This document shows, in pieces, positions 24,352 through 40,023 of a stretch of 64,000 nt of DNA. The stretch's first letter is position 1, and every line of letters begins with the position of its first letter. Made by a program: the position numbers and the translations under genes. The notes beneath the pieces are model-generated. The model saw only the letters and a program-made list of their open reading frames with translations. It was not told the DNA's origin and did not search any database. The stretch is from positions 3,454,664 through 3,518,663 of the forward strand of contig CP030158.1 of NCBI GenBank assembly GCA_003285105.1, given 5' to 3'. This DNA is from Roseithermus sacchariphilus (GTDB lineage: Bacteria; Bacteroidota; Rhodothermia; Rhodothermales; MEBIC09517).

Positions 24352-25896
24352 ATGGCAACGGATTACGACGTCATCATCGTCGGGGCGGGTCACAATGCCC
24401 TCATCACCGCCGCGTACGTCGCCCAGGCAGGTTATCGGGTCGGGGTGTTCGAGCGGCGGGATATGGTCGGCGGTGCCGTATCGACCCGGGAGGTGGTGCC
24501 GGGTTACCGGTTCGATCTGGGCGGCAGCGCTCACATCCTCATCCGGCTGACGCCCATCGTCGAGGAACTGCGGCTGGATCGGTTCGGGCTGGAATACATC
24601 GACCTGGATCCGCTTTTTTTCGTGCCGTTCCGGGATGGGGACCACTTTTTCATCTATCGCGACGTCGATCGGACCGTCGAGCATCTGGAGGCGAAGTATC
24701 CCGGCGAAGGCGAGGCGTACGCGCGCTTCGTCGCCGACTGGAGCGGGTTTGCGCGGACGGTTCGGGACACGTTTCTGCGGACCCCGAGCCCGTTTGAACT
24801 GGGCAAAGCCTTCGCGTTCAACCCGGAGCGCGGAGCGGCGCCCTGGACGGACTCGCTACAGCAGATCCTCCAGCCCTACGGGGACGTAGCCGCGCGGTAC
24901 TTCCGGGAGGAGAAACTCCGGGCCGCGCTGGTGTGGATGGCCGCACAATCCGGGCCGCCGCCCACCGAACCCCTCACAGCCCCGTTTCTGCTCTGGCACC
25001 CGCTGTACCACGAAGGCGGCATCGCCCGCCCGCGCGGTGGATCCGGGATGCTGACACAGGCGCTTCGGCGACACATCGAGGCGCACGGCGGTCAGGTCCA
25101 CGTGCAGGCGCCGGTCGATGCGATTCTGGTGGAGCAGCGGCGGGCGACGGGGATCCGCGCGCTCGGGCAGGTCTACACGGCGCGGGCCGTGGTGGCCGGG
25201 ACGCATGCGCTGGAGACGTTTGGCCGGCTCCTGCCCGAGGCGTACCGACCGCCGGAGAGCCGCCACATGCGCGTGGGCAACGGCTTCGGCGCGATCTTGC
25301 GGCTGGCTCTGAGCGAGCCGGTGCGTTATACCGCGGCGCCGGGGCACGAGGCCCGGGTGGGCCTCCAGTTGCTGTGCGAGGACGTCGGCCAGATCCACGC
25401 GGCGTACGGGGATTTCCTGCGCGGGGAGCCCTCCGCCGATCCGCCCATCGTGGCAATGACGTTCAGCGCGGTGGATCCGACGCTGGCCCCTCCGGGCGGC
25501 GAGGTGCTGTGGCTCTGGTTTCAGTACGCTCCATACGCCCTCGCCGGGGGACGACGCTGGGACGACATCGAAGACGCCGTAGCGGATCGGGTGCTGGAGA
25601 CGTTCGAACGCTATGCACCGGGGACCCGCGACCGAGTCGTCGGCCGCCTGATCCAGCATCCACGCTGGCTGGAACGCGAACTGGGGCTGTACCGGGGGAA
25701 CGTGATGCACCTGGAGATGAGCATCGACCAGATGTTCGCCGCCCGGCCCTTCATCGGGATGAGCAACTATGCCACCCACTTGAAGGGGCTCTACCTGACC
25801 GGTGCCAGCACCCATCCCGGAGGGGGTATCATGGGCGCATCGGGGCGGAATGCGGCGCGTGTCCTCCTCCACGATCTCAGCCGGAAGCGTCTGTGA
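24352..25896 (+). CDS. CrtO-like carotenoid ketolase / phytoene desaturase-family oxidoreductase
   Basis: 514-residue FAD-dependent protein. The dinucleotide-binding GxGxxG is at the N-terminus ([20 protein letters not shown]), with [16 protein letters not shown] and a C-terminal FAD segment ([25 protein letters not shown]). The [22 protein letters not shown] and [19 protein letters not shown] blocks match CrtO-type beta-carotene 4-ketolases and related CruO enzymes more than CrtI phytoene desaturases. A carotenoid role is supported by the directly overlapping lycopene cyclase gene. A clear ribosome site GGAGG precedes ATG 24352. The exact reaction (ketolation versus desaturation or isomerisation) is not settled by sequence. 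Confidence 0.8.
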
Positions 25897-26639
25897 CCTA
25901 CCTCGCCTTCCTCCTCGTTTATCTCGTCCCCCCTATCGTTCTGCTCGCGGTGACGCAGCCTCGCCCGCTGGCGGGGATCGGCGGCTGGCGTGGGCGCTGG
26001 TCGATCCCGCTCGTCTGTGCCATTGCGATGCTCTACACCACGCCCTGGGACAATTACCTGGTGTACCGGGAGGTCTGGTGGTACGGAGCAGACCGGGTGC
26101 TGGCTACCATCGGGCATGTGCCCGTTGAGGAATACCTCTTTTTCCTGCTCCAGCCGATCATGACCGGGCTGTTGCTGTACCACTTCGTGGCTCGAAGCTC
26201 CCGCGTCGAGCGGCTGGCACCGGCACCCGGAACGGTCGTCGCCGGCACCCTTTTCTACCTGCTGATGACGGGAGTGGGTGTGTACCTGCTGCTGGCAGGA
26301 GGTGACCAGGGGCTCTACATGGGGCTCATCCTGGCCTGGGCCGGTCCGCCGCTGGCAGGGCTGTGGTACTACGGTGGACCGATCTTTCAGGCGCATCGCC
26401 GGAGCTTTGCATGGACGGTTGCGCTGGCGACCCTCTACCTGTGGGTGGCGGATCGCACGGCCATCGACCGCGGAATCTGGGACATTTCCGATCGGTACTC
26501 GTTCGACATCGACCCCTTCGGCCTGCCGGTGGAGGAAGCGACCTTCTTTCTGGTAACTAATCTGCTCGTGGTTCAGGGGGTGTTGCTGTTTCTCTTCGGT
26601 CATCTTCTGCCATCCCGAACGCTCCGTTCGCCCTCATGA
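25893..26639 (+). CDS. Lycopene cyclase (fused CrtYc-CrtYd type)
   Basis: 248-residue membrane protein with two repeated lycopene-cyclase domains (residues ~5-95 and ~130-245). Each has the PWDNYLVY / [11 protein letters not shown]-type motif followed by [11 protein letters not shown] and [16 protein letters not shown]. In actinobacteria these are two subunits (CrtYc, CrtYd); here they are fused as in archaea, fungi and Salinibacter-type bacteria. It cyclises lycopene to beta-carotene in the membrane. The GTG start (25893) overlaps the TGA of the crtO-like gene as GTGA, and its own stop overlaps miaA as ATGA, so the three are translationally coupled. Confidence 0.92.
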
Positions 26640-27535
26640 AGCATGCCTCTGTGCTCATACTGGCGGGTCCTACGGCGGTGGGCAAGACCGAGCTGAGCCT
26701 CCAGTTGGCCGAGCAGATGTCGGCGGAGATCGTGTCGGCGGACAGCCGGCAGGTCTATCGACGGCTGGATATCGGGACCGCCAAACCCACGCCAGAGGAG
26801 CTGGCGCGGGTTCGGCATCACTTCATCGACGAACTGGACCTGGAGGAGCCCTTTTCCGCCGGGCGCTTTGCGGAGGCGGCCTGGGAGCGCATCCGTGAGA
26901 TCCATGCGCGGGGTCGTGCCGCGCTCGTCGTAGGAGGCTCGACGCTGTACCTCTACGCGTTGCAGTACGGCCTGGCGGAGATCCCGACGGTATCGGCCGG
27001 GACGCGGGCGGCCATCGAGGAGCGGCTGGGCCGCGAAGGTGCTGAGGCCCTGTACCGGGAGCTGCAATCCGTGGACCCGGAGGCCGCCGCTACGATGGAT
27101 CCGACGAAAACGCAACGGCTCGTCCGCGCGCTGGAAGTGTATCATGAGACGGGTGAGCCCATCTCGTCCTTCCAGCGCAAGACCATCAGGCCACCCTTTA
27201 ACTTCCGTACCGTGGTGCTCACGCGCGACCGTGCAGCGTTGTACGAGCGCATCAACCGGCGAGTGGATCTCATGCTGGATGCCGGTCTTCTCGATGAGGT
27301 GGCCGGGCTGCTGGAGGCCGGCTTCGACCCGTCGGTCAACCCGCTGCGCACCATCGGCTATCAGGAGCCGATTCGTTTTCTGCAGGGCGAGATCTCACGG
27401 GAAGAAATGGTTCGCCTGATCAAGCGGAACACCCGCCGCTATGCCAAGCGGCAGTTGACGTGGTACCGGCGGTTTTCGGACGTTCGCTGGGTGGATGTGT
27501 TATCTGTTCAAGATTTAAATGTATTATTGCAATAA
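26636..27535 (+). CDS. miaA: tRNA dimethylallyltransferase
   Basis: 299 residues, standard MiaA length. It transfers a dimethylallyl group to A37 of tRNAs reading U-starting codons. P-loop AGPTAVGKTELSLQL, the conserved SADSRQVYRRLDIGTAKPT, the HHFIDELDLEEPFSAG box, LVVGGSTLYLYAL, TQRLVRALEVYHETGEPIS and C-terminal TRRYAKRQLTWYRR are all present. Its last codons and TAA form part of the palindromic copy of the dispersed 12-mer. It shares dimethylallyl diphosphate with the carotenoid pathway encoded upstream, a possible reason for the co-transcription. Confidence 0.96.
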   Translation: MKHASVLILAGPTAVGKTELSLQLAEQMSAEIVSADSRQVYRRLDIGTAKPTPEELARVRHHFIDELDLEEPFSAGRFAEAAWERIREIHARGRAALVVGGSTLYLYALQYGLAEIPTVSAGTRAAIEERLGREGAEALYRELQSVDPEAAATMDPTKTQRLVRALEVYHETGEPISSFQRKTIRPPFNFRTVVLTRDRAALYERINRRVDLMLDAGLLDEVAGLLEAGFDPSVNPLRTIGYQEPIRFLQGEISREEMVRLIKRNTRRYAKRQLTWYRRFSDVRWVDVLSVQDLNVLLQ

Positions 27536-29389
27536 CGGCTCTTTTCGCAGCACGTACAGCGCCTGTTTATGAGGGAACAGACCGAAGCGCTGTACCTCTA
27601 CGCTTACGGGATGCGTCCCGGCACATCGCCGAATCATCGCCAGCCAGGCCCCCACGGTTCGGTGATGCAGGTACGCTTCCTGGTCACGCATGGCCCCTCC
27701 TGAGCGCACCCGGTTCGCCCAGCGGTCGAGCCGGCGGAGTACCCGACGATCGGTTTCGCTCTCGTAGACGGATTCCCAGATGAGCACGGCGCCGCGCGTG
27801 ACGCGCAGGGCCTCTCGAAGCACGGTTTCCGGTCGTTCGGTGTGATGCAGAACGAACAGCAGCAGGGTCACGTCGAAGGTATCGTCGGCAAACGGCAGGA
27901 CGTGCCCGTCATAGCGGACGTGCGGCAACGCCGTGCGGTTGAGGTCGATCACATCGGCTAGGATCACCTCGGCTCCATGCCGCTCTTGCAGGATCGCTCC
28001 GACGTAGCCTTCCCCTGCCCCGAGATCGAGTACGCGCCGGGATCGGGTCGCCGTCGGACCCGGGAGGTGTCTCCTCAGTCTTTCGTATTTGCGCTGTGCC
28101 CGGTTTGTTTGCAGTCCTTGCAATAACGGATCTTTATACTGGATCCATCCCGCGACCGCACCGCCGCCCCAGCTCAGCCACACGAACAGGCGGTAGAGGG
28201 TATCACCGTCCAGATCCTCCGGGTACAACAGATACGTCCCCACCGAAGCCAGCGCGAGGACGTACCAGCCCCACGGAGGCCGTCGGTACCAGGCCAGCAA
28301 CGGGAGTACCGCCAGCAGATACCACGGATGCACGGTGGTCGCCAGCAGCAGGTAGCCCCCCATCAGGTAGAGCATTGCACGGTGCAGCGGCCAGCGTCGC
28401 TTTCCGTCGAGTGCATACACCACCGGCACCAGCAGCAAAAACAGCAGCCGGAACGCCGGGCCGATCTGCTTGCTCCAGTCCTCCCCCGTCCACCACCACA
28501 TCATCCCCTTGACGGCATAATACGGCCCCGCATTGAATTCGAAATAGCGCACGTAGAGATCCAGCGATTCGGCCAGGTGCGCGGGGACGCGGGGATCCGC
28601 GTACGGAAGCCACACCAGCAGGCTGACGACGCCGGCCGGCCAGACGGACGCCCACCCGAATCGCCGCCACAGCAGGGGCAGCAACAGCACCGGGTAGAGC
28701 TTCACCCACCCCGCCAGCGTGAGGGTCACCGCCGCCGCGACCGGCCGGTGCCGGGCGACGAACCACAGCGCGGCCAGGAGCAACCCCACCATCGCCGCCT
28801 CGGTGTGGGCCTGCCCGGCCACCTCGACGAGCACGAGCGGATGCCAGGCATACAGCAACACGCCGCGCGCCTCGACCAACCGCCCTAGCAGCCACACGCC
28901 CACCAGCTCCAGCAGCACGAACAGCCCTTTGATGACGCAGTAGGCGACCTCCCACCCCATCGGCATGAACCAGCCTCCCACCCGAAACAGCAGCTGCGAA
29001 ACCGGCGGGTAGACGCTGTAAAACGAGGCTGAGTTCAGCCCGTCGTACAGCGGTGACGCCTGAAAGCCAGCCAGAGCGGCTTCGTCAGGCCGGTACAGGT
29101 ACGGGTTGATCCCTTGCGTCTGGATCCAGCCGTCCCAGACGTAGCGAAACGCGTCGTCCGACAGCCCCGGAAGCAGCCAGAAAAAGGCCAGCCGCAGCAG
29201 CACCGCCCCGAGGAGCACATCCCGCAGCCGCAGCGAATGTCGGAACCACAGGACCACGTGCAGGCCTCCGGCAACCAGCGTGGCGACCACGAACAGAGGC
29301 CACCAGGTTCGATCACCGGCCGACACCGCCATGACCCCGACGGCGACCAGATACCCCGCCAGCCATCCGAACGTCGCGCGTGTCGGCAT
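27524..29389 (-). CDS. Polyprenyl-linked glycosyltransferase fused to a SAM methyltransferase
   Basis: 621 residues with two unrelated halves. Residues ~1-400 are a polytopic GT-C-like membrane enzyme: about ten TM helices and a DDAFRYVWDGWIQTQGINPY motif (tandem Asp in the first loop, as in mannosyltransferases of the MptA/MptB and PIG-M type), plus SVYPPVSQL and HPLVLVEVAGQAHTEAA. Residues ~415-621 are a class I methyltransferase: RRVLDLGAGEGYVGAIL (SAM motif I), VILADVIDLNR, PFADDTFDVTLLLFVLHHTERPE, then a catalytic-fold tail. Both halves are complete. Start at ATG 29389 follows AAAGGCGGG. It overlaps miaA by 12 bases at the 3' end. Probably modifies a lipid-linked sugar or glycan; substrate unknown. 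Confidence 0.75.
   Translation of the reverse strand: MPTRATFGWLAGYLVAVGVMAVSAGDRTWWPLFVVATLVAGGLHVVLWFRHSLRLRDVLLGAVLLRLAFFWLLPGLSDDAFRYVWDGWIQTQGINPYLYRPDEAALAGFQASPLYDGLNSASFYSVYPPVSQLLFRVGGWFMPMGWEVAYCVIKGLFVLLELVGVWLLGRLVEARGVLLYAWHPLVLVEVAGQAHTEAAMVGLLLAALWFVARHRPVAAAVTLTLAGWVKLYPVLLLPLLWRRFGWASVWPAGVVSLLVWLPYADPRVPAHLAESLDLYVRYFEFNAGPYYAVKGMMWWWTGEDWSKQIGPAFRLLFLLLVPVVYALDGKRRWPLHRAMLYLMGGYLLLATTVHPWYLLAVLPLLAWYRRPPWGWYVLALASVGTYLLYPEDLDGDTLYRLFVWLSWGGGAVAGWIQYKDPLLQGLQTNRAQRKYERLRRHLPGPTATRSRRVLDLGAGEGYVGAILQERHGAEVILADVIDLNRTALPHVRYDGHVLPFADDTFDVTLLLFVLHHTERPETVLREALRVTRGAVLIWESVYESETDRRVLRRLDRWANRVRSGGAMRDQEAYLHHRTVGAWLAMIRRCAGTHPVSVEVQRFGLFPHKQALYVLRKEPLLQ
27527..27538 (-). repeat. 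Dispersed 12-mer, copy 4 (at the miaA stop)
   Basis: Exact CCGTTATTGCAA on the minus strand. Here the site extends into the palindrome TTATTGCAATAA, which contains the miaA TAA stop and the last codons of the convergent fusion gene. Confidence 0.95.
28118..28129 (-). repeat. Dispersed 12-mer, copy 5 (inside the fusion gene)
   Basis: Exact CCGTTATTGCAA on the minus strand. It is read in frame as P-L-L-Q, in the linker between the glycosyltransferase and methyltransferase halves. Confidence 0.95.
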
Positions 29390-29400
29390 CCCGCCTTTCG

Positions 29401-29835
29401 TCACGCGTCCGGTACCGTCCGGTGGAACACCATACGCACGCACCGCCCCTCGTCCTCGAAATGCACTTCATCGGCCATGGCATGCATCAGAAAAATGCCG
29501 CGGCCGCCTTCGTCCAGCAGATGATCCTGCGCGATGGGGTTTTTGAGCTTCCCCGGGTCGAACCCCGATCCCTCATCGCGGACCCGAAGGTCGATCTGGC
29601 GGTCCATCACCCGGAGGTCCACCTGCACCATCTTGTCCGGATCGGTCTGGTTGCCGTGCTCGATGGCGTTGGTCACCGCCTCGCTCGTCAGCAGCACGAT
29701 ACGGTAGACGGCCTCGTCGTCCACGTACGGCCGAATGAACGCCTCCGTCTCGTCGATCACCTGATCCAGCAGCGTGACGTCACTCGGCAATTCGAGATGG
29801 AGGCGGCGATGGGCGTCACTGACCACTTTTTTCAT
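29401..29835 (-). CDS. RsbW-like anti-sigma factor / histidine-kinase-like ATPase
   Basis: About 144 residues, a stand-alone HATPase_c_2 (GHKL) domain: N box LTSEAVTNAIEHGNQ, G1 box VRDEGSGFDP, G2 box LLDEGGRGIFLMHAMAD. This class (RsbW/SpoIIAB-like serine kinases) binds sigma factors or phosphorylates STAS antagonists; neither partner is in the window. ATG at 29835 (MKKVVSDAH) is chosen over a TTG start at 29880 because it begins the domain. It is 45 bases downstream of the subtilase gene and probably co-transcribed with the fusion gene that follows 11 bases later. Confidence 0.85.
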   Translation of the reverse strand: MKKVVSDAHRRLHLELPSDVTLLDQVIDETEAFIRPYVDDEAVYRIVLLTSEAVTNAIEHGNQTDPDKMVQVDLRVMDRQIDLRVRDEGSGFDPGKLKNPIAQDHLLDEGGRGIFLMHAMADEVHFEDEGRCVRMVFHRTVPDA

Positions 29836-29880
29836 GCGATCGGGCGGACTGAGCCGAAAGAGGATGAGCACCGGGGCCAA

Positions 29881-32800
29881 TTACCGAATCACCGCAACCT
29901 TCCGCAAGACGGCCGCACCGTCCGGGGCTTCCACCCGGACCAGGTAGATCCCCGAGGGCACCGGCTGCCCGGCTTCGTCGCGCAGATCCCACCAGAGGCC
30001 TCCGTTCCCGTCGGACTCGGTCAGGCGGCGGACGAGGACGCCCTGAGCGGAGAGCACCTGCACGCCGGCCTCGGCCGTCAGCCCGGCGACCATGACGCGC
30101 GCGTCGTGCCGGCGCACGTCTACCGGATTGGGATACAGATACACCTGATCGAGGTCGTCCGCCGGCCCGACGAGCAAGGCGGTCTGCCCTTCCGCCGCCA
30201 GCAGCGCCCCGCTGGCCCCGCGCATGTAGGTCACTACGAGCGCCGTCTCGCGCCCCGTCGGGCCGATGGCCAGACCGGCAATCTGCACCTCCACTTCGTC
30301 AGGGCGGCTCGGATCGAACCGAACGGCCGCGACGGTCCCGTCCGGGATGACGCGGTAATGGGCAGGATTCCCGGCCACCGCTGGTTCCAGCGCCTCGCTG
30401 AAACGCAATCGGACCCGATCGAGCCCCAGCACCTCCCACGCGACCAGGTGCAATCGCCGATCCAGGGCATCGGGCACCTCCACGAAGACGGCCTCCTGCC
30501 CGACGGGCGTGCCTTCGCGGTCCTTGAGGCCGGTCCAGCGCAGCGTGTCGGACCCGACCAGCGGCTCGGCGAAGCGCAGGACGACCTCACGCCCCTGGCG
30601 GGCCAACAGCACGGCATCCGGCCGTTGCCCCCGATCGAACCGGAACTGCTCGGGGAGGATCGTCGGGGGCATCGCCTCGCTGAAGCGGAGCCGAACAGAG
30701 GCGGGCCGAAACACGGCCACGTCCTGCACGACGGCCGGAGCGTGGGGCCGCACATACCGGGCGGGCGAGAGCGCCGAGGCCGCGCCACCCTGCCAGCCGC
30801 GCAGCACGTAGCGGCTGAGCACGTCGGTCGAGTCGATGAATGCCTCCCCGGAGACGGTCGCCACCGGATCGAGGGGGCCGCCGTCCTGGCCGCGGAAGAC
30901 GGTCACCGAATCGGCTCCGGGGGTCCAGGCGAGGTACACGCGCCGGGCATCCAGGGCATGAGCCGCCACCCACTGCGGCGGGGGATGCGCGGAAGCACCC
31001 GCCGCCATCGCGAACCGGTGCAGGCGTTCATCGGCCCCGGCCACGACGAGGTGCGGCACGCCCGTTCCATCCCAGTCCGCCGCCACCATCGCCATCGAGC
31101 GGATGCCGGGGTCGGCCGTGTACGCATACCGATCACGGCGCCGCCATCCATCCTCCCAGGCAACCATGTAGAGCGCCGGCGGATGCGCCAGCACCAGCTC
31201 GTCCCGCCCGTCGCCGTCGAAGTCGGCCGTCGTCAGGGAGCCGTGGCGAGAAACGTGCCCCCAGACGGTCAGCGAATCGACCAGAACCAGGGTATCGTCG
31301 CCGATGGCATCCCAGACGTAGTAGCGGCCGACCGGGGGTTCCAGGACACCATCGCGCGTGGGCTGCGTCCAGGGCTGCGTGTACGTCACGAACTCCGAGA
31401 GGCCGTCGCCGTCGAAATCGCCAGAGGCCAGGCGACTGCCGGCATTGTAGCGATCGGTTTCGTGGGTCCAGACGACGGCGTAGGCATCGTTGCCGGTGGC
31501 TTCGTACAGGATCCAGTCGCCGTCGCTGTCGCCCACGAGCAGGTTGAGCCGCCCATCACCGTCGGGATCCCCGATGAGCGCTTCGGGCTCCTGGAACTCG
31601 TTGCGGTCGATCTCCCCGGTGCCGACGCCCGTCGGGTTGTCCAGCCGGACGACGTCGGCATACGAGGTGCCGTCGTACTCCAGCACCCGCCATGCCCGGG
31701 TGTTGTGGACCAGCACCTCGCCGCGGCCGTCCTGATCCAGGTCGGTGAGCCGGGCGGCGAAGGCGGATCGTTCGTTGAAGGGATCGGCGAGCCCCGTGGT
31801 GTCGAGGAACGCTTCGCGCCAGGGAAACGCGTCGGGATCGGGTTGTTCGAGCAGCAACGTGGCGCCAACGACCTGCGTGAGCAGCTCGAGCAAGCCGTCG
31901 CCGTCGGAGTCGCCGGCATCGCGGGGGATGACGTTGGCCACGAGCCGCTGAGCCGGCCGGAAGCGGCTGCCGTCCCATTCGTAGGTCGCCAGCGTGTCGC
32001 CGATCCAGCCGTCCTGGTAGCGGTTGAGCGTCAGCTCCAGGAGGCCGTCCCGGTCGAAGTCCGTGGCACGGGGCAACAGGAAGCCGTGGGGCACGTCGAG
32101 CGGGGTCCGCGTCATCCAGCCCGCGTGGAAGGCCGTCGGCGGGATGAACACCTCTCGCTCCAGGTCGGTCGTCAGCCCGGCGGCGCTGGTGACGACGAGC
32201 CGGACGCGGGCCGTTCCCCCGCGGCGGGTGGGATCGACCCAGTAGGCCCCGAGCCGCCGCGAGCGACGGTCGGAGGCGGCCGTGTAGGTCTGCCCGCCCA
32301 GCGTCACCTCCATCCGCAGCAAGGCGAGGTCGTCCACCGCCACGTCGGCGATGAGGCCATAGGCATCGGCGATGAGGCCGGCGTCGAGGATACGCACCTC
32401 GACGTGCGGGGGCGTGCGGTCCAGAAACACGCGATGCCGCGCCTCGACGGCCCGACCGCTACGCAGCCGGGTGGACAGCCGCAGCAGGTACGTGCCCTCG
32501 GCGTAGTCGTCGGTGTGCCAGAGCGCCAGGGTATCGGCCAGCACCTGCCGCTCCAGCACCTCACCGAGCGGCTCCCACACCGGCTCCTCACCCGGCACCT
32601 CCGGGGCGATGAAAACCTGCGCCGAGCGGAAGCCGGCATCCAGCGCGGTGCCGACGACGGCCACGACCCCACCGGATACGCCCGCCTCGTGCGCCGGCGC
32701 GAGCAACTCGGTGCGGCCGGGCAGCACCCGTTGCACCGCGGCCGCCACGTCCAGCCGACCCGCGGCCGTGCGGTGGTCCCATCCGGGGAGATCGAGGTCA

Positions 32801-34110
32801 GCGGCGGTGCCGGTGAGGATGCTGCGGACGGACGCCGGGCTGAGGTCGGGCTGGATGGTTTTCAGGAGCGCCGCGGCGGCCGCCACCATCGGAGCCGCCA
32901 TCGACGAACCACTCCGGCGGCCATAAAGCAGGGCGGGCGCCTCGGCCGGAGGGAGCAGCGTGGTGTAGATCGCCGTCCCCGGCGCCCCCAGGTCGATGCC
33001 GACGCCGTAGGTCCCTCGCCCGGCGATGCCCGTGCCCTCGGCATTCAACCAGGCCGTAGAGATGACCTCGGGGTAGTCGGACGGATAATGCGGGCGATCC
33101 CCGCCGACGTTCCCGGCCGAGGCCACCACCACGGTGCCCTGCTCGACGGCGTAGCGGATGCTCTCGTGCATCAGCGGCGAGTAGTAGACGTCCCCGAAGG
33201 ACAGGTTCAAGACGTCCAGCCCCAGTTGCGCGGCGTAGACGATGGCCGCCGCTACGTCGTCGTCCTCCGCGAGCCCGTCCGCCCCGAAGGCGCGCAGCGG
33301 GACGATCCGGCAGCCCGGGGCCACCCCCGCCCCGCCGACGCCGTTGTCTCGGGCCGCGGCCAGCACCCCCGCTACGATCGTCCCGTGCCCGCGCCCACCG
33401 CCCGGAGCCGGATCATCCGACGGGTCGGGGTCCGGGCCGGTGTAATCCCCCGGCTCCACCGCGGCCGTCCGATCCACGAAATCATACCCGCGGAGGTCGT
33501 CCACGTAGCCGTTCCCGTCGTCGTCGAGGCCGTTGAGGTCTTCGGGGTCGAAGCGGCCGTTGCCGTTGAGGTCCTCGCCGGGATGGATCCATAGCTGCGA
33601 GGCCAGATCCGGATGATCGAGGAAGACGCCGGTATCGACCAGCCCGATCCGCACCTCCGGCCGCCCGGTCGTAATGGCCCAGGCTTCCGGCACCCGGATC
33701 ACTGCGAAGTGATCGAGGCTGTCCAGATGCGGATCAGGGGCGGCGGACGGAACGAGCGCGTCCAGGCGGTAGCGGTGGTTATACTGCGCGTAGGCGACCT
33801 CGGGTACGGCGGTCCAGCGCGCCAGCACCTCCCGCGCCGTGGTGGAGTCGGGCAGGGTGAGGCGATAGACGTGCATCGTCCAGTCGGGCCGCGGAGTGGC
33901 GCCGGACCGGTTGGCGAACAGCGGTTGCACCGCCGAGACGCCGTCGGCCAGGCCGGGCCGCGCGGCGGCCAGCGTCGCCGGACCGCCCTGCAGGGCCGTG
34001 TTCAGCCCGGCCTCCTCGTGCAAGCGCACGATCACGTCTACCTGCGCCCGCGCGGTGTGGGACAGACACGCCGCGGTCAGCAACGAAAGCCATTTGCAAT
34101 AACGGATCAT
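29881..34110 (-). CDS. Large secreted subtilase with FG-GAP/VCBS repeats and T9SS sorting domain
   Basis: 1409 residues. Signal peptide MIRYCKWLSLLTAACLSHTARAQ (residues 1-23) and a propeptide, then an S8 peptidase domain with catalytic Asp ~159 (IGLVDTGVFLDH), His ~242 (GRGHGTIVAG) and Ser ~403 (SGSSMAAPMVAAAAALL). The centre has at least six calcium-binding FG-GAP/VCBS-like repeats (DSDGDGLLELL, DLDQDGRGEVLV, DPDGDGRLNLLVG, DFDGDGLSEF, DFDGDGRDELVL). The C-terminal ~85 residues (YLYPNPVDVR, SGIYLVRVEAPDG, VLRKVAVIR) fit the type A sorting domain of the type IX secretion system. This predicts export to the surface or medium. Its ATG overlaps the GT4 stop (ATGA). Confidence 0.9.
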   Translation of the reverse strand: MIRYCKWLSLLTAACLSHTARAQVDVIVRLHEEAGLNTALQGGPATLAAARPGLADGVSAVQPLFANRSGATPRPDWTMHVYRLTLPDSTTAREVLARWTAVPEVAYAQYNHRYRLDALVPSAAPDPHLDSLDHFAVIRVPEAWAITTGRPEVRIGLVDTGVFLDHPDLASQLWIHPGEDLNGNGRFDPEDLNGLDDDGNGYVDDLRGYDFVDRTAAVEPGDYTGPDPDPSDDPAPGGGRGHGTIVAGVLAAARDNGVGGAGVAPGCRIVPLRAFGADGLAEDDDVAAAIVYAAQLGLDVLNLSFGDVYYSPLMHESIRYAVEQGTVVVASAGNVGGDRPHYPSDYPEVISTAWLNAEGTGIAGRGTYGVGIDLGAPGTAIYTTLLPPAEAPALLYGRRSGSSMAAPMVAAAAALLKTIQPDLSPASVRSILTGTAADLDLPGWDHRTAAGRLDVAAAVQRVLPGRTELLAPAHEAGVSGGVVAVVGTALDAGFRSAQVFIAPEVPGEEPVWEPLGEVLERQVLADTLALWHTDDYAEGTYLLRLSTRLRSGRAVEARHRVFLDRTPPHVEVRILDAGLIADAYGLIADVAVDDLALLRMEVTLGGQTYTAASDRRSRRLGAYWVDPTRRGGTARVRLVVTSAAGLTTDLEREVFIPPTAFHAGWMTRTPLDVPHGFLLPRATDFDRDGLLELTLNRYQDGWIGDTLATYEWDGSRFRPAQRLVANVIPRDAGDSDGDGLLELLTQVVGATLLLEQPDPDAFPWREAFLDTTGLADPFNERSAFAARLTDLDQDGRGEVLVHNTRAWRVLEYDGTSYADVVRLDNPTGVGTGEIDRNEFQEPEALIGDPDGDGRLNLLVGDSDGDWILYEATGNDAYAVVWTHETDRYNAGSRLASGDFDGDGLSEFVTYTQPWTQPTRDGVLEPPVGRYYVWDAIGDDTLVLVDSLTVWGHVSRHGSLTTADFDGDGRDELVLAHPPALYMVAWEDGWRRRDRYAYTADPGIRSMAMVAADWDGTGVPHLVVAGADERLHRFAMAAGASAHPPPQWVAAHALDARRVYLAWTPGADSVTVFRGQDGGPLDPVATVSGEAFIDSTDVLSRYVLRGWQGGAASALSPARYVRPHAPAVVQDVAVFRPASVRLRFSEAMPPTILPEQFRFDRGQRPDAVLLARQGREVVLRFAEPLVGSDTLRWTGLKDREGTPVGQEAVFVEVPDALDRRLHLVAWEVLGLDRVRLRFSEALEPAVAGNPAHYRVIPDGTVAAVRFDPSRPDEVEVQIAGLAIGPTGRETALVVTYMRGASGALLAAEGQTALLVGPADDLDQVYLYPNPVDVRRHDARVMVAGLTAEAGVQVLSAQGVLVRRLTESDGNGGLWWDLRDEAGQPVPSGIYLVRVEAPDGAAVLRKVAVIR
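34094..34105 (-). repeat. Dispersed 12-mer, copy 6 (codons 2-6 of the subtilase)
   Basis: Exact CCGTTATTGCAA on the minus strand, five bases inside the gene. It is read as (I)-R-Y-C-K, the third possible reading frame of the motif. Confidence 0.95.
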
Positions 34111-35393
34111 TCGTCCTCCACGCACGCCTCCAGCACCTGCGCCAGCCCCCCGGCCAGCCGCCGCCGGTCGTAGCGGACGACGGCGTCCTCCACCGGCTCC
34201 GGCAAGCGCCCGGCCTCCCAGGCCGCCACGACCTCTGCCAGCACCGCCGCGATGGCACCCTCGTCATCCGGCGGCGCGATCCACCCGGCTCCGTACGCCC
34301 GCACCGTCCGCGCCGCCTCCCCCTCCGGCACCAGCGCCAGAATGGGTTTGCGCGCGCCGACGTACTCGTACAACTTGCTCGTTGAGATCCCCTCCGCCCC
34401 CGGCCGCCGCCCGATCGTCATCCAGAGCACGTCGGCCGCCTGCAGGTGCGCGATCACCTCCGCGTGAGGGCGATAGCCTTCCCAGCGGATCACCGCCTCC
34501 AGCCCGAGGCGCTCCGCGAGCCGACGCGAAGCCTCCGGCACCAGCCCGACAAACGTCAGCCGGATGCGGTCGCGCAGCACGGGCCGTTCGGCCAGCAACC
34601 GGGCCCACGCCCGCAGGAAGAAGTCCGGGGTCTGCACGTCGTAAAACACGCCGCTGTGGACGAAGTGCAGCACGTCCCGTTGCGCGGGAGCGGAGGATGG
34701 CGCCGCCGCGAAGTCCGCCGGATCGTAGCCCTGCGGCAGCACCAGCACGTCCTCGTCCCGGATCGCACCGCGGTTCCGCCGGGCCAGGGCGTCGCGGATG
34801 TGGGGATTGATAGCCAGCACGCGCCGGCTGGTCTGCATGACCCATCGCTCCAGGCGCCGGTGTGCGGCGCGGTGCCACGGCGTCGGGTAGACGTGGCGCG
34901 GGTTGCCCACCCAGTCGTCCCGGAAATCCGTCACGAGGGGCCGACCGAACCGGCGGCTGAGCAGCGCGGCGACCAGGTGTGCGGTATACGGCGGGGCGCT
35001 CGAAAAGACGGCATCGAACCCGTGTTCCCGCCCCAGCGCCCGGCCCCGGCTCCAGGCGAACGGGAGCCACCCGAGCTTGTTATCCGGCACGAACAGCCAC
35101 TGGCTGAGGGTGGCCAGCCTCCGGCGGGCAGGCTCGCGCGGGAGCGACACGGTCGCCCGTCGCCCGAACAGCTGCGTCGGATCCAGCGAGGCGGTGCGGT
35201 GGATGGGTACCCCGGCGGCCTCCACCTCGGCCAGCAGCGACGGATCGAAGGCGAAATAGCCGCCGGGCTCGACGGTGAGGACGGTGGGGGCCCAGCCGAA
35301 CTCGGGCAGATACCGCACGAACTTCGCCGTGCGCTGGACGCCGCTCAGGCCCATCGGGGGGAAATAGTAGGCAACGACCAGAACACGCCGCAT
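34107..35393 (-). CDS. GT4-family glycosyltransferase
   Basis: 428 residues, GT-B fold. The N-terminal domain begins VLVVAYYFPPMGLSGVQRTAKF, typical of GT4 enzymes acting on polysaccharide or lipopolysaccharide precursors. The C-terminal donor domain has VEPEASRRLAERLG-like and HLQAADVLWMTIGRRPGAEGISTSKLYEYVGARKPILAL, the ExxxxxxxE region. Inverting or retaining specificity and the donor are not assigned. It lies between the M24 peptidase and the subtilase. Its TGA overlaps the subtilase ATG, so the protease and glycosyltransferase are translated together, possibly for surface glycan or glycoprotein assembly. Confidence 0.87.
   Translation of the reverse strand: MRRVLVVAYYFPPMGLSGVQRTAKFVRYLPEFGWAPTVLTVEPGGYFAFDPSLLAEVEAAGVPIHRTASLDPTQLFGRRATVSLPREPARRRLATLSQWLFVPDNKLGWLPFAWSRGRALGREHGFDAVFSSAPPYTAHLVAALLSRRFGRPLVTDFRDDWVGNPRHVYPTPWHRAAHRRLERWVMQTSRRVLAINPHIRDALARRNRGAIRDEDVLVLPQGYDPADFAAAPSSAPAQRDVLHFVHSGVFYDVQTPDFFLRAWARLLAERPVLRDRIRLTFVGLVPEASRRLAERLGLEAVIRWEGYRPHAEVIAHLQAADVLWMTIGRRPGAEGISTSKLYEYVGARKPILALVPEGEAARTVRAYGAGWIAPPDDEGAIAAVLAEVVAAWEAGRLPEPVEDAVVRYDRRRLAGGLAQVLEACVEDE

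Positions 35394-36548: not shown

Positions 36549-40023
<3,475 letters not shown>

Follow-up and report, generated by a model that had tools for sequence, protein, structure and literature searches.

PimE is a mannosyltransferase of mycobacteria that depends on polyprenyl-phosphate-mannose. It has 12 membrane helices and its two termini are cytoplasmic; D58 is the catalytic aspartate, and the enzyme is inactive once the lysine K195 is lost (PMC12041525). ALG3, GPI mannosyltransferase I (PIG-M type) and ALG6 are eukaryotic enzymes, and the titles of their structure entries name dolichyl-phosphate sugars. We know of no methyltransferase domain in these matched entries. RebM and AtmM are O-methyltransferases of glycosylated natural products that carry out sugar 4-O-methylation; the AtmM entry is named as a D-glucose O-methyltransferase.

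In the window, by which we mean the whole stretch of 64,000 nucleotides of Roseithermus sacchariphilus DNA analysed here, a single gene encodes a protein that resembles both kinds of enzyme (Table 1). Its N-terminal half has the fold of a GT-C glycosyltransferase. PimE matches this half with a Z score of 17.9 over 331 residues (17% identity over the fold alignment) and its 12 membrane helices have counterparts in the fusion protein, which differs from PimE by two extra N-terminal helices and a C-terminal methyltransferase. The best fold matches of this half, ALG3, GPI mannosyltransferase I and ALG6, share 11-14% identity with it. The C-terminal half has the class I fold of RebM and AtmM (Z 17.9 and 16.8 over 173-179 residues), which in contrast are single-domain proteins in the matched entries.

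We found no Pfam or NCBIfam model spanning both halves among the families matched in our profile searches, in keeping with the sequence-only reading, which had placed the combination in no standard family. Nor did we find a description of such a fusion in the open-licence PMC literature, judged from titles and abstract openings. As far as our searches went, the architecture is undescribed, and it is related to known enzymes.

Table 1. Coordinates of the fusion gene, its parts and its neighbours in the window
Feature	Position	Strand	Remarks
GT-C glycosyltransferase / class I methyltransferase fusion gene	27524..29389	-	621 aa (639 aa with GTG at 29443)
GT-C domain, residues 1-426	28111..29389	-	14 membrane helices (model); residues invariant across 54 aligned rows
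Last membrane helix, one helix running on into basic linker, residues 395-441	28063..28207	-	Structure model
Class I SAM methyltransferase domain, about residues 443-621	27524..28061	-	Pfam, fold matches, model
Upstream neighbour, RsbW-like HATPase_c_2 protein	29401..29880	-	Family in 36 of 80 compared loci
Convergent downstream neighbour MiaA	26636..27535	+	Family in 35 of 80 compared loci
Linker copy of 18-nt direct repeat (KDPLLQ)	28118..28135	-	
C-terminal copy of 18-nt direct repeat (KEPLLQ, then stop)	27527..27544	-	

The fusion gene and its distribution

The maximal open frame covers 27524-29443 on the minus strand, 639 codons counted from the first GTG. The ATG at 29389 is the likelier start: a plausible ribosome site, GACGAAAGGCGGG, stands before it, and the upstream gene has already terminated at 29401. 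Residue numbers below follow the resulting 621-aa form unless the 639-aa form is stated. A separate translation start for the C-terminal half, which could have undone the idea of a fusion, has no support in the sequence: no ATG occurs from residue 360 to residue 480, and the sole alternative start codon within the linker is TTG 423.

We surveyed 60 genomes of the order, that of the window among them. Both halves were found in one frame in 36 of the 60 genomes (in five of the 36 as two match pieces within one frame), and only the GT half was matched in eight. The fusion match was divided between two contigs in G022, and G007 carried two overlapping frames. The match was fragmentary in G050 and weak or partial in G005, G045 and G053; seven genomes of one family (f3) gave weak methyltransferase matches only, and in this survey nothing was matched in G018, G052 and G058. 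One genome of the order, G006, has a free-standing methyltransferase relative that overlaps the gene for a DUF6080 protein.

A scan of named genomes, from which the best 80 of at least 573 confirmed candidates were kept, yielded 79 loci. By profile search 56 of these were fused and 23 were GT-only, proportions that are not those of nature as the best matches were kept; one of the 23, L097, is interrupted by a contig end and its assignment is uncertain. In a sample from the phylum of L064, Gemmatimonadota, five of 150 genomes matched over both halves, the genome of L064 itself included and one of them (G158) with a TGA inside the match. The records are mostly MAGs, so organism names, including Planctomycetota, Pseudomonadota and Chlorobiota, may be wrong. 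Since single-frame homologues occur in many independent genomes, the fusion that the sequence-only reading had described is real and is not a sequencing artefact. That reading had also suggested looking for species in which the two halves are separate adjacent genes. Around the 23 GT-only named loci no separate methyltransferase above 25 bits was found, in flanks that reached at most 10 kb and were often shorter, and whole Salinivenus-like genomes gave just weak generic methyltransferase matches.

The two domains

An AlphaFold model of the protein, built on 54 alignment rows, had a mean pLDDT of 95.6 and a pTM of 0.90. The N-terminal half of the model matched yeast ALG3 (Z 24.2), GPI mannosyltransferase I (22.9) and PIG-U (20.8), and at lower scores ALG6 (19.9), PimE (17.9) and ArnT (17.0). 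With Z scores of 17-24 over 257-340 residues to ALG3, GPI mannosyltransferase I, ALG6, PimE and ArnT, this half has the GT-C membrane fold. The membrane domain thus proved mannosyltransferase-like, as had been read from the letters, with 14 helices in the model in place of the ten first counted. In Pfam the N-terminal half of the window's protein gave a sub-threshold PIG-U match only; GT87 (PF09594) was matched at E ≤ 0.01 by 14 of 18 homologues and not by the window's own protein.

Invariant across the 54 aligned rows are D79, K230 and H354-P355-W356-Y357. The essential K195 of PimE aligns with K230 in a short profile match that is weak but significant (E 0.0075). D79 is located in the first long loop of the GT-C domain, and its profile alignment with PimE D58 (-2.2 bits) was not significant. 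By analogy with these enzymes, the GT-C domain probably uses a sugar from polyprenyl-phosphate, most likely mannose or another hexose.

The C-terminal half is a complete class I SAM methyltransferase domain, as claimed earlier: it has a Rossmann-type fold, a SAM motif and a Methyltransf_11 match above the cut-off (residues 472-550 of the 639-aa form, 1.5e-10, 42 bits against 21.2). In the 621-aa numbering this core occupies residues 454-532. Across 18 diverse homologues neither the SAM-site motif LDxGxxxGxxG nor an HH motif varies. Many class I methyltransferases matched the fold at Z 16-18, RebM first, and since many of them score nearly equally, within 1-2 Z units of RebM and AtmM, it does not follow that a substrate is shared with these two.

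Membrane sides

SAM is found in the cytoplasm and is required by the methyltransferase. The fold alignment with PimE starts at residue 46 of the fusion protein, which leaves two more N-terminal helices, so both ends of the fusion protein should again lie inside. In the model, the last membrane span and the start of the linker form one unbroken helix, 395-441. Loop charges agreed with this orientation: K/R came to 16.1 inside and 8.5 outside, D/E came to 2.7 inside and 13.7 outside, and with the linker omitted the net charge was higher inside in 54 of 54 rows, a count that serves as a consistency test as we set the loop limits from the model and PimE. From PimE homology and loop charges, the methyltransferase is most likely cytoplasmic and the glycosyltransferase site periplasmic. 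With the sites on opposite faces, one molecule would meet both only by crossing the membrane in between.

Evolution of the two halves

We built a quick tree of the GT domain from 84 rows and rooted it on 16 Bacteroidota GT-only rows, a root of our own choosing. The remaining 68 rows are set apart from these 16 by a branch with an SH-aLRT support of 99, and the fused and GT-only states need four changes on the rooted tree. Nested among the fused rows are nine GT-only rows of Salinibacteraceae type (supports 96-99); the other GT-only rows within the 68-row side are L092 and L097. A single clade of all GT-only rows was marginally rejected (p-AU 0.037), in a test in which the group was named after the tree had been seen and L092 and L097 were omitted. 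The tree suggests one old fusion event, with the clearest loss in Salinivenus-like genomes, where a GT-only gene appears to have been left at the same locus. At five named loci of this nested GT-only type (L057, L058, L066, L068, L071) an S8 protease lies directly upstream in four and a convergent MiaA directly downstream in four, and the same flanks also surround many fused genes. Because this synteny agrees with the nesting in the tree, the methyltransferase was probably lost in place in this lineage.

With L079, L089 and a short row removed from the 57 fused rows, the identities of the GT and methyltransferase halves co-vary in the other 54 (Spearman 0.67, against a maximum of 0.28 in 999 permutations). 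We found dN/dS values of 0.09-0.28 for both halves in six of eight pairs, those with estimable dS; both halves are under purifying selection.

GT2 genes and free-standing methyltransferases

In 11 of 17 loci (L093-L109) the GT-only homologue has a polyprenyl-phosphate-sugar-synthase-like GT2 upstream of it, at most 1.6 kb away; two fused genes, L032 and L045, have one at a distance of 2.4-2.7 kb. The one member scanned against NCBIfam resembles AglJ and dolichyl-phosphate hexose transferases at scores below the cut-offs. The GT-only homologues of Bacteroidota that stand downstream of this GT2 include L094, L098, L100 (Pontibacter), L095, L099, L101, L104 and L109, and in the non-Pontibacter loci checked a second GT2 of about 490 aa stands between the two. 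In the window the synthase-like GT2 is not adjacent to the fusion; it lies elsewhere in the genome (64% identity). We set co-occurrence with this GT2 aside as evidence of linkage because it is uninformative: 59 of the 60 genomes of the order have the gene, with or without the fusion.

The highest-scoring free-standing methyltransferases taken from the 150-genome sample (L119-L124), encoded separately in Gemmatimonadota MAGs, score 74-90 bits against the profile of the fused domain. One GT2 family, with members 40-69% identical, adjoins five of the six best free-standing matches in the 150-genome sample (G170, G173, G136, G113, G179, G096), on the same strand in four of the five, and lies 5.8 kb from the sixth. 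With GT2 queries derived from five of the six loci themselves, that family was found at similar strength around none of 20 weaker methyltransferase matches, four of which have some GT2-like match; we picked these 20 ourselves at E 3.5e-11 to 1.7e-6, with several in that range omitted, and some of the stretches around them are interrupted by contig ends. The link has exceptions: two of the 20, L125 and L127, fall in the GT2-linked clade, and the GT2 family was not found in the stretch covered. In the methyltransferase tree L128, one of the weak matches, sits on a long branch within the fused clade. The GT2-linked free-standing methyltransferases did not come out of this tree as a resolved sister group to the fused domain.

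A PMT_2-type protein is found near two of the six best matches. In Gemmatimonadota MAGs a pair recurs in which a GT2 of 390-410 aa with membrane helices directly precedes a small free-standing methyltransferase (L119 2539-7775; L121 4734-8382; L123 4071-5884; L124 5258-7071), with large multi-helix membrane proteins nearby.

Proposed role and alternatives

The reading that we prefer, at a probability of about 0.45, is that the protein is a membrane enzyme of lipid-linked sugar metabolism in which cytoplasmic sugar methylation and periplasmic sugar transfer belong to one pathway. The methyltransferase domain most likely sits in the cytoplasm on the continuation of the last membrane helix. It may O-methylate a lipid-linked sugar on the cytoplasmic leaflet, the target being perhaps a polyprenyl-phosphate-sugar donor from a GT2 synthase or a glycolipid acceptor. 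The methylated lipid-linked molecule might then be flipped across the membrane and used outside by the GT-C domain, which probably adds a sugar from polyprenyl-phosphate to a membrane acceptor on the periplasmic side. Such a fusion would keep successive steps of the pathway together across the membrane. The substrates and the order of the steps are what we infer. In favour of this reading we counted the conserved fusion, the fold matches, K230, the topology, the co-variation and the GT2 neighbours; against it, the occurrence of the synthase-like GT2 does not track the fusion, and the fold of the methyltransferase half is about as close to many unrelated methyltransferases. Salinivenus-like genomes do without the methyltransferase, so the GT step does not require methylation.

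A narrower version, which we consider doubtful, is that the cytoplasmic domain puts a methyl mark on a polyprenyl-phosphate-linked sugar and that, after the flip, the protein's own GT-C site transfers the marked sugar. If true, a single gene would ensure that methylated sugar reaches the cell envelope.

The co-variation of the halves and the GT2 genes beside free-standing relatives argue against the alternative that survives best, namely that the substrate of the methyltransferase is cytosolic or a lipid and lies outside the GT pathway, for instance a quinone precursor or the head group of a phospholipid, with the fusion as a membrane tether or a means of fixing the enzyme ratio. This is a somewhat unlikely explanation that still deserves weight: the best family matches of the domain are generic, models for menaquinone and other methyltransferases stay below NCBIfam cut-offs, and phosphoethanolamine methyltransferases are among its fold matches. 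It is distinctly unlikely that the domain is mainly structural or regulatory, a SAM sensor or a chaperone of the membrane domain. One long helix does couple both domains in the model and the glycosyltransferase works without a methyltransferase in Salinivenus-like genomes, but the LDxGxxxGxxG and HH motifs are invariant over the diverse homologues and the domain is under purifying selection.

The sequence-only reading had a sugar transferred and the product, or its carrier, methylated afterwards, and this is not supported as written by active sites predicted on opposite faces. The same prediction makes it highly improbable that the attached methyltransferase acts in a direct relay on the GT product at the same membrane face, even though both domains share one chain; methylation of a carrier-linked sugar ahead of transfer is possible. 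An artefact of sequencing or assembly, by a frameshift or missing stop joining two genes, can be dismissed: nothing of the kind was found for the window's genome, the frame break in G007 lies within the membrane domain and not at the domain junction, and single-frame fusions recur in many independent genomes.

In this conserved architecture a SAM enzyme and a glycosyltransferase that depends on lipid-linked sugars are predicted to face opposite sides of the membrane within a single protein. Should their link prove functional, it would indicate where Rhodothermales and other phyla make methylated envelope sugars. A natural comparison is available in Salinivenus-like genomes, where the glycosyltransferase has stayed at that locus and the methyltransferase is missing; Salinivenus lutea is GT-only, and the cultivated Longimonas halophila carries the fusion.

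Neighbouring genes, the repeat and the gene ends

A large subtilisin-like (S8) protease with FG-GAP repeats is encoded at 29881-34125 (minus strand) and is a neighbour of the fusion in 17 other loci; its C-terminal domain, of T9SS type, scores 23.2 bits, right at the cut-off of 23. Beyond miaA, 24352-26639 (plus strand) encodes a CrtO/CrtI-like carotenoid oxidoreductase (below NCBIfam cut-offs) beside a membrane protein that we take to be lycopene-cyclase-like. Members of the two families are also found past MiaA in 9-11 other loci. We do not favour carotenoid glycosylation as the role of the fusion, as another gene, cruC, has been put forward, likewise as a proposal, for that step in Rhodothermus marinus (PMC5822342).

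At 36549-39248 (minus strand) lies an IMP dehydrogenase of 899 aa, compared with a median of 511 aa in relatives, whose IMPDH match is split in two. With Hom_end_hint at residues 334-390 and LAGLIDADG_3 at 587-619, the insert looks like an intein with a homing endonuclease, absent from most relatives compared.

The linker was said to bear a repeat, and an 18-nt direct repeat was confirmed there, with its second copy at the C-terminus. The copies are identical at 17 of 18 positions, in frame and spaced 591 nt (197 codons) apart. Because 42 of 2000 codon shuffles contain a comparable repeat (39 of the 42 in frame), it is only mildly unexpected. No such pair was seen among the alignment rows of the relatives listed; L005, for example, has a C-terminal KPLLQKN and a linker without a copy. 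The repeat was set aside as a cause of methyltransferase gain or loss, as it was seen in a single genome and occurs at that rate in shuffles.

The last 12 nt of miaA overlap the end of the fusion gene. This 3' overlap of opposite strands (27524-27535) is a 12-nt palindrome, TTATTGCAATAA, so that MiaA and the fusion protein both end in LLQ followed by TAA.
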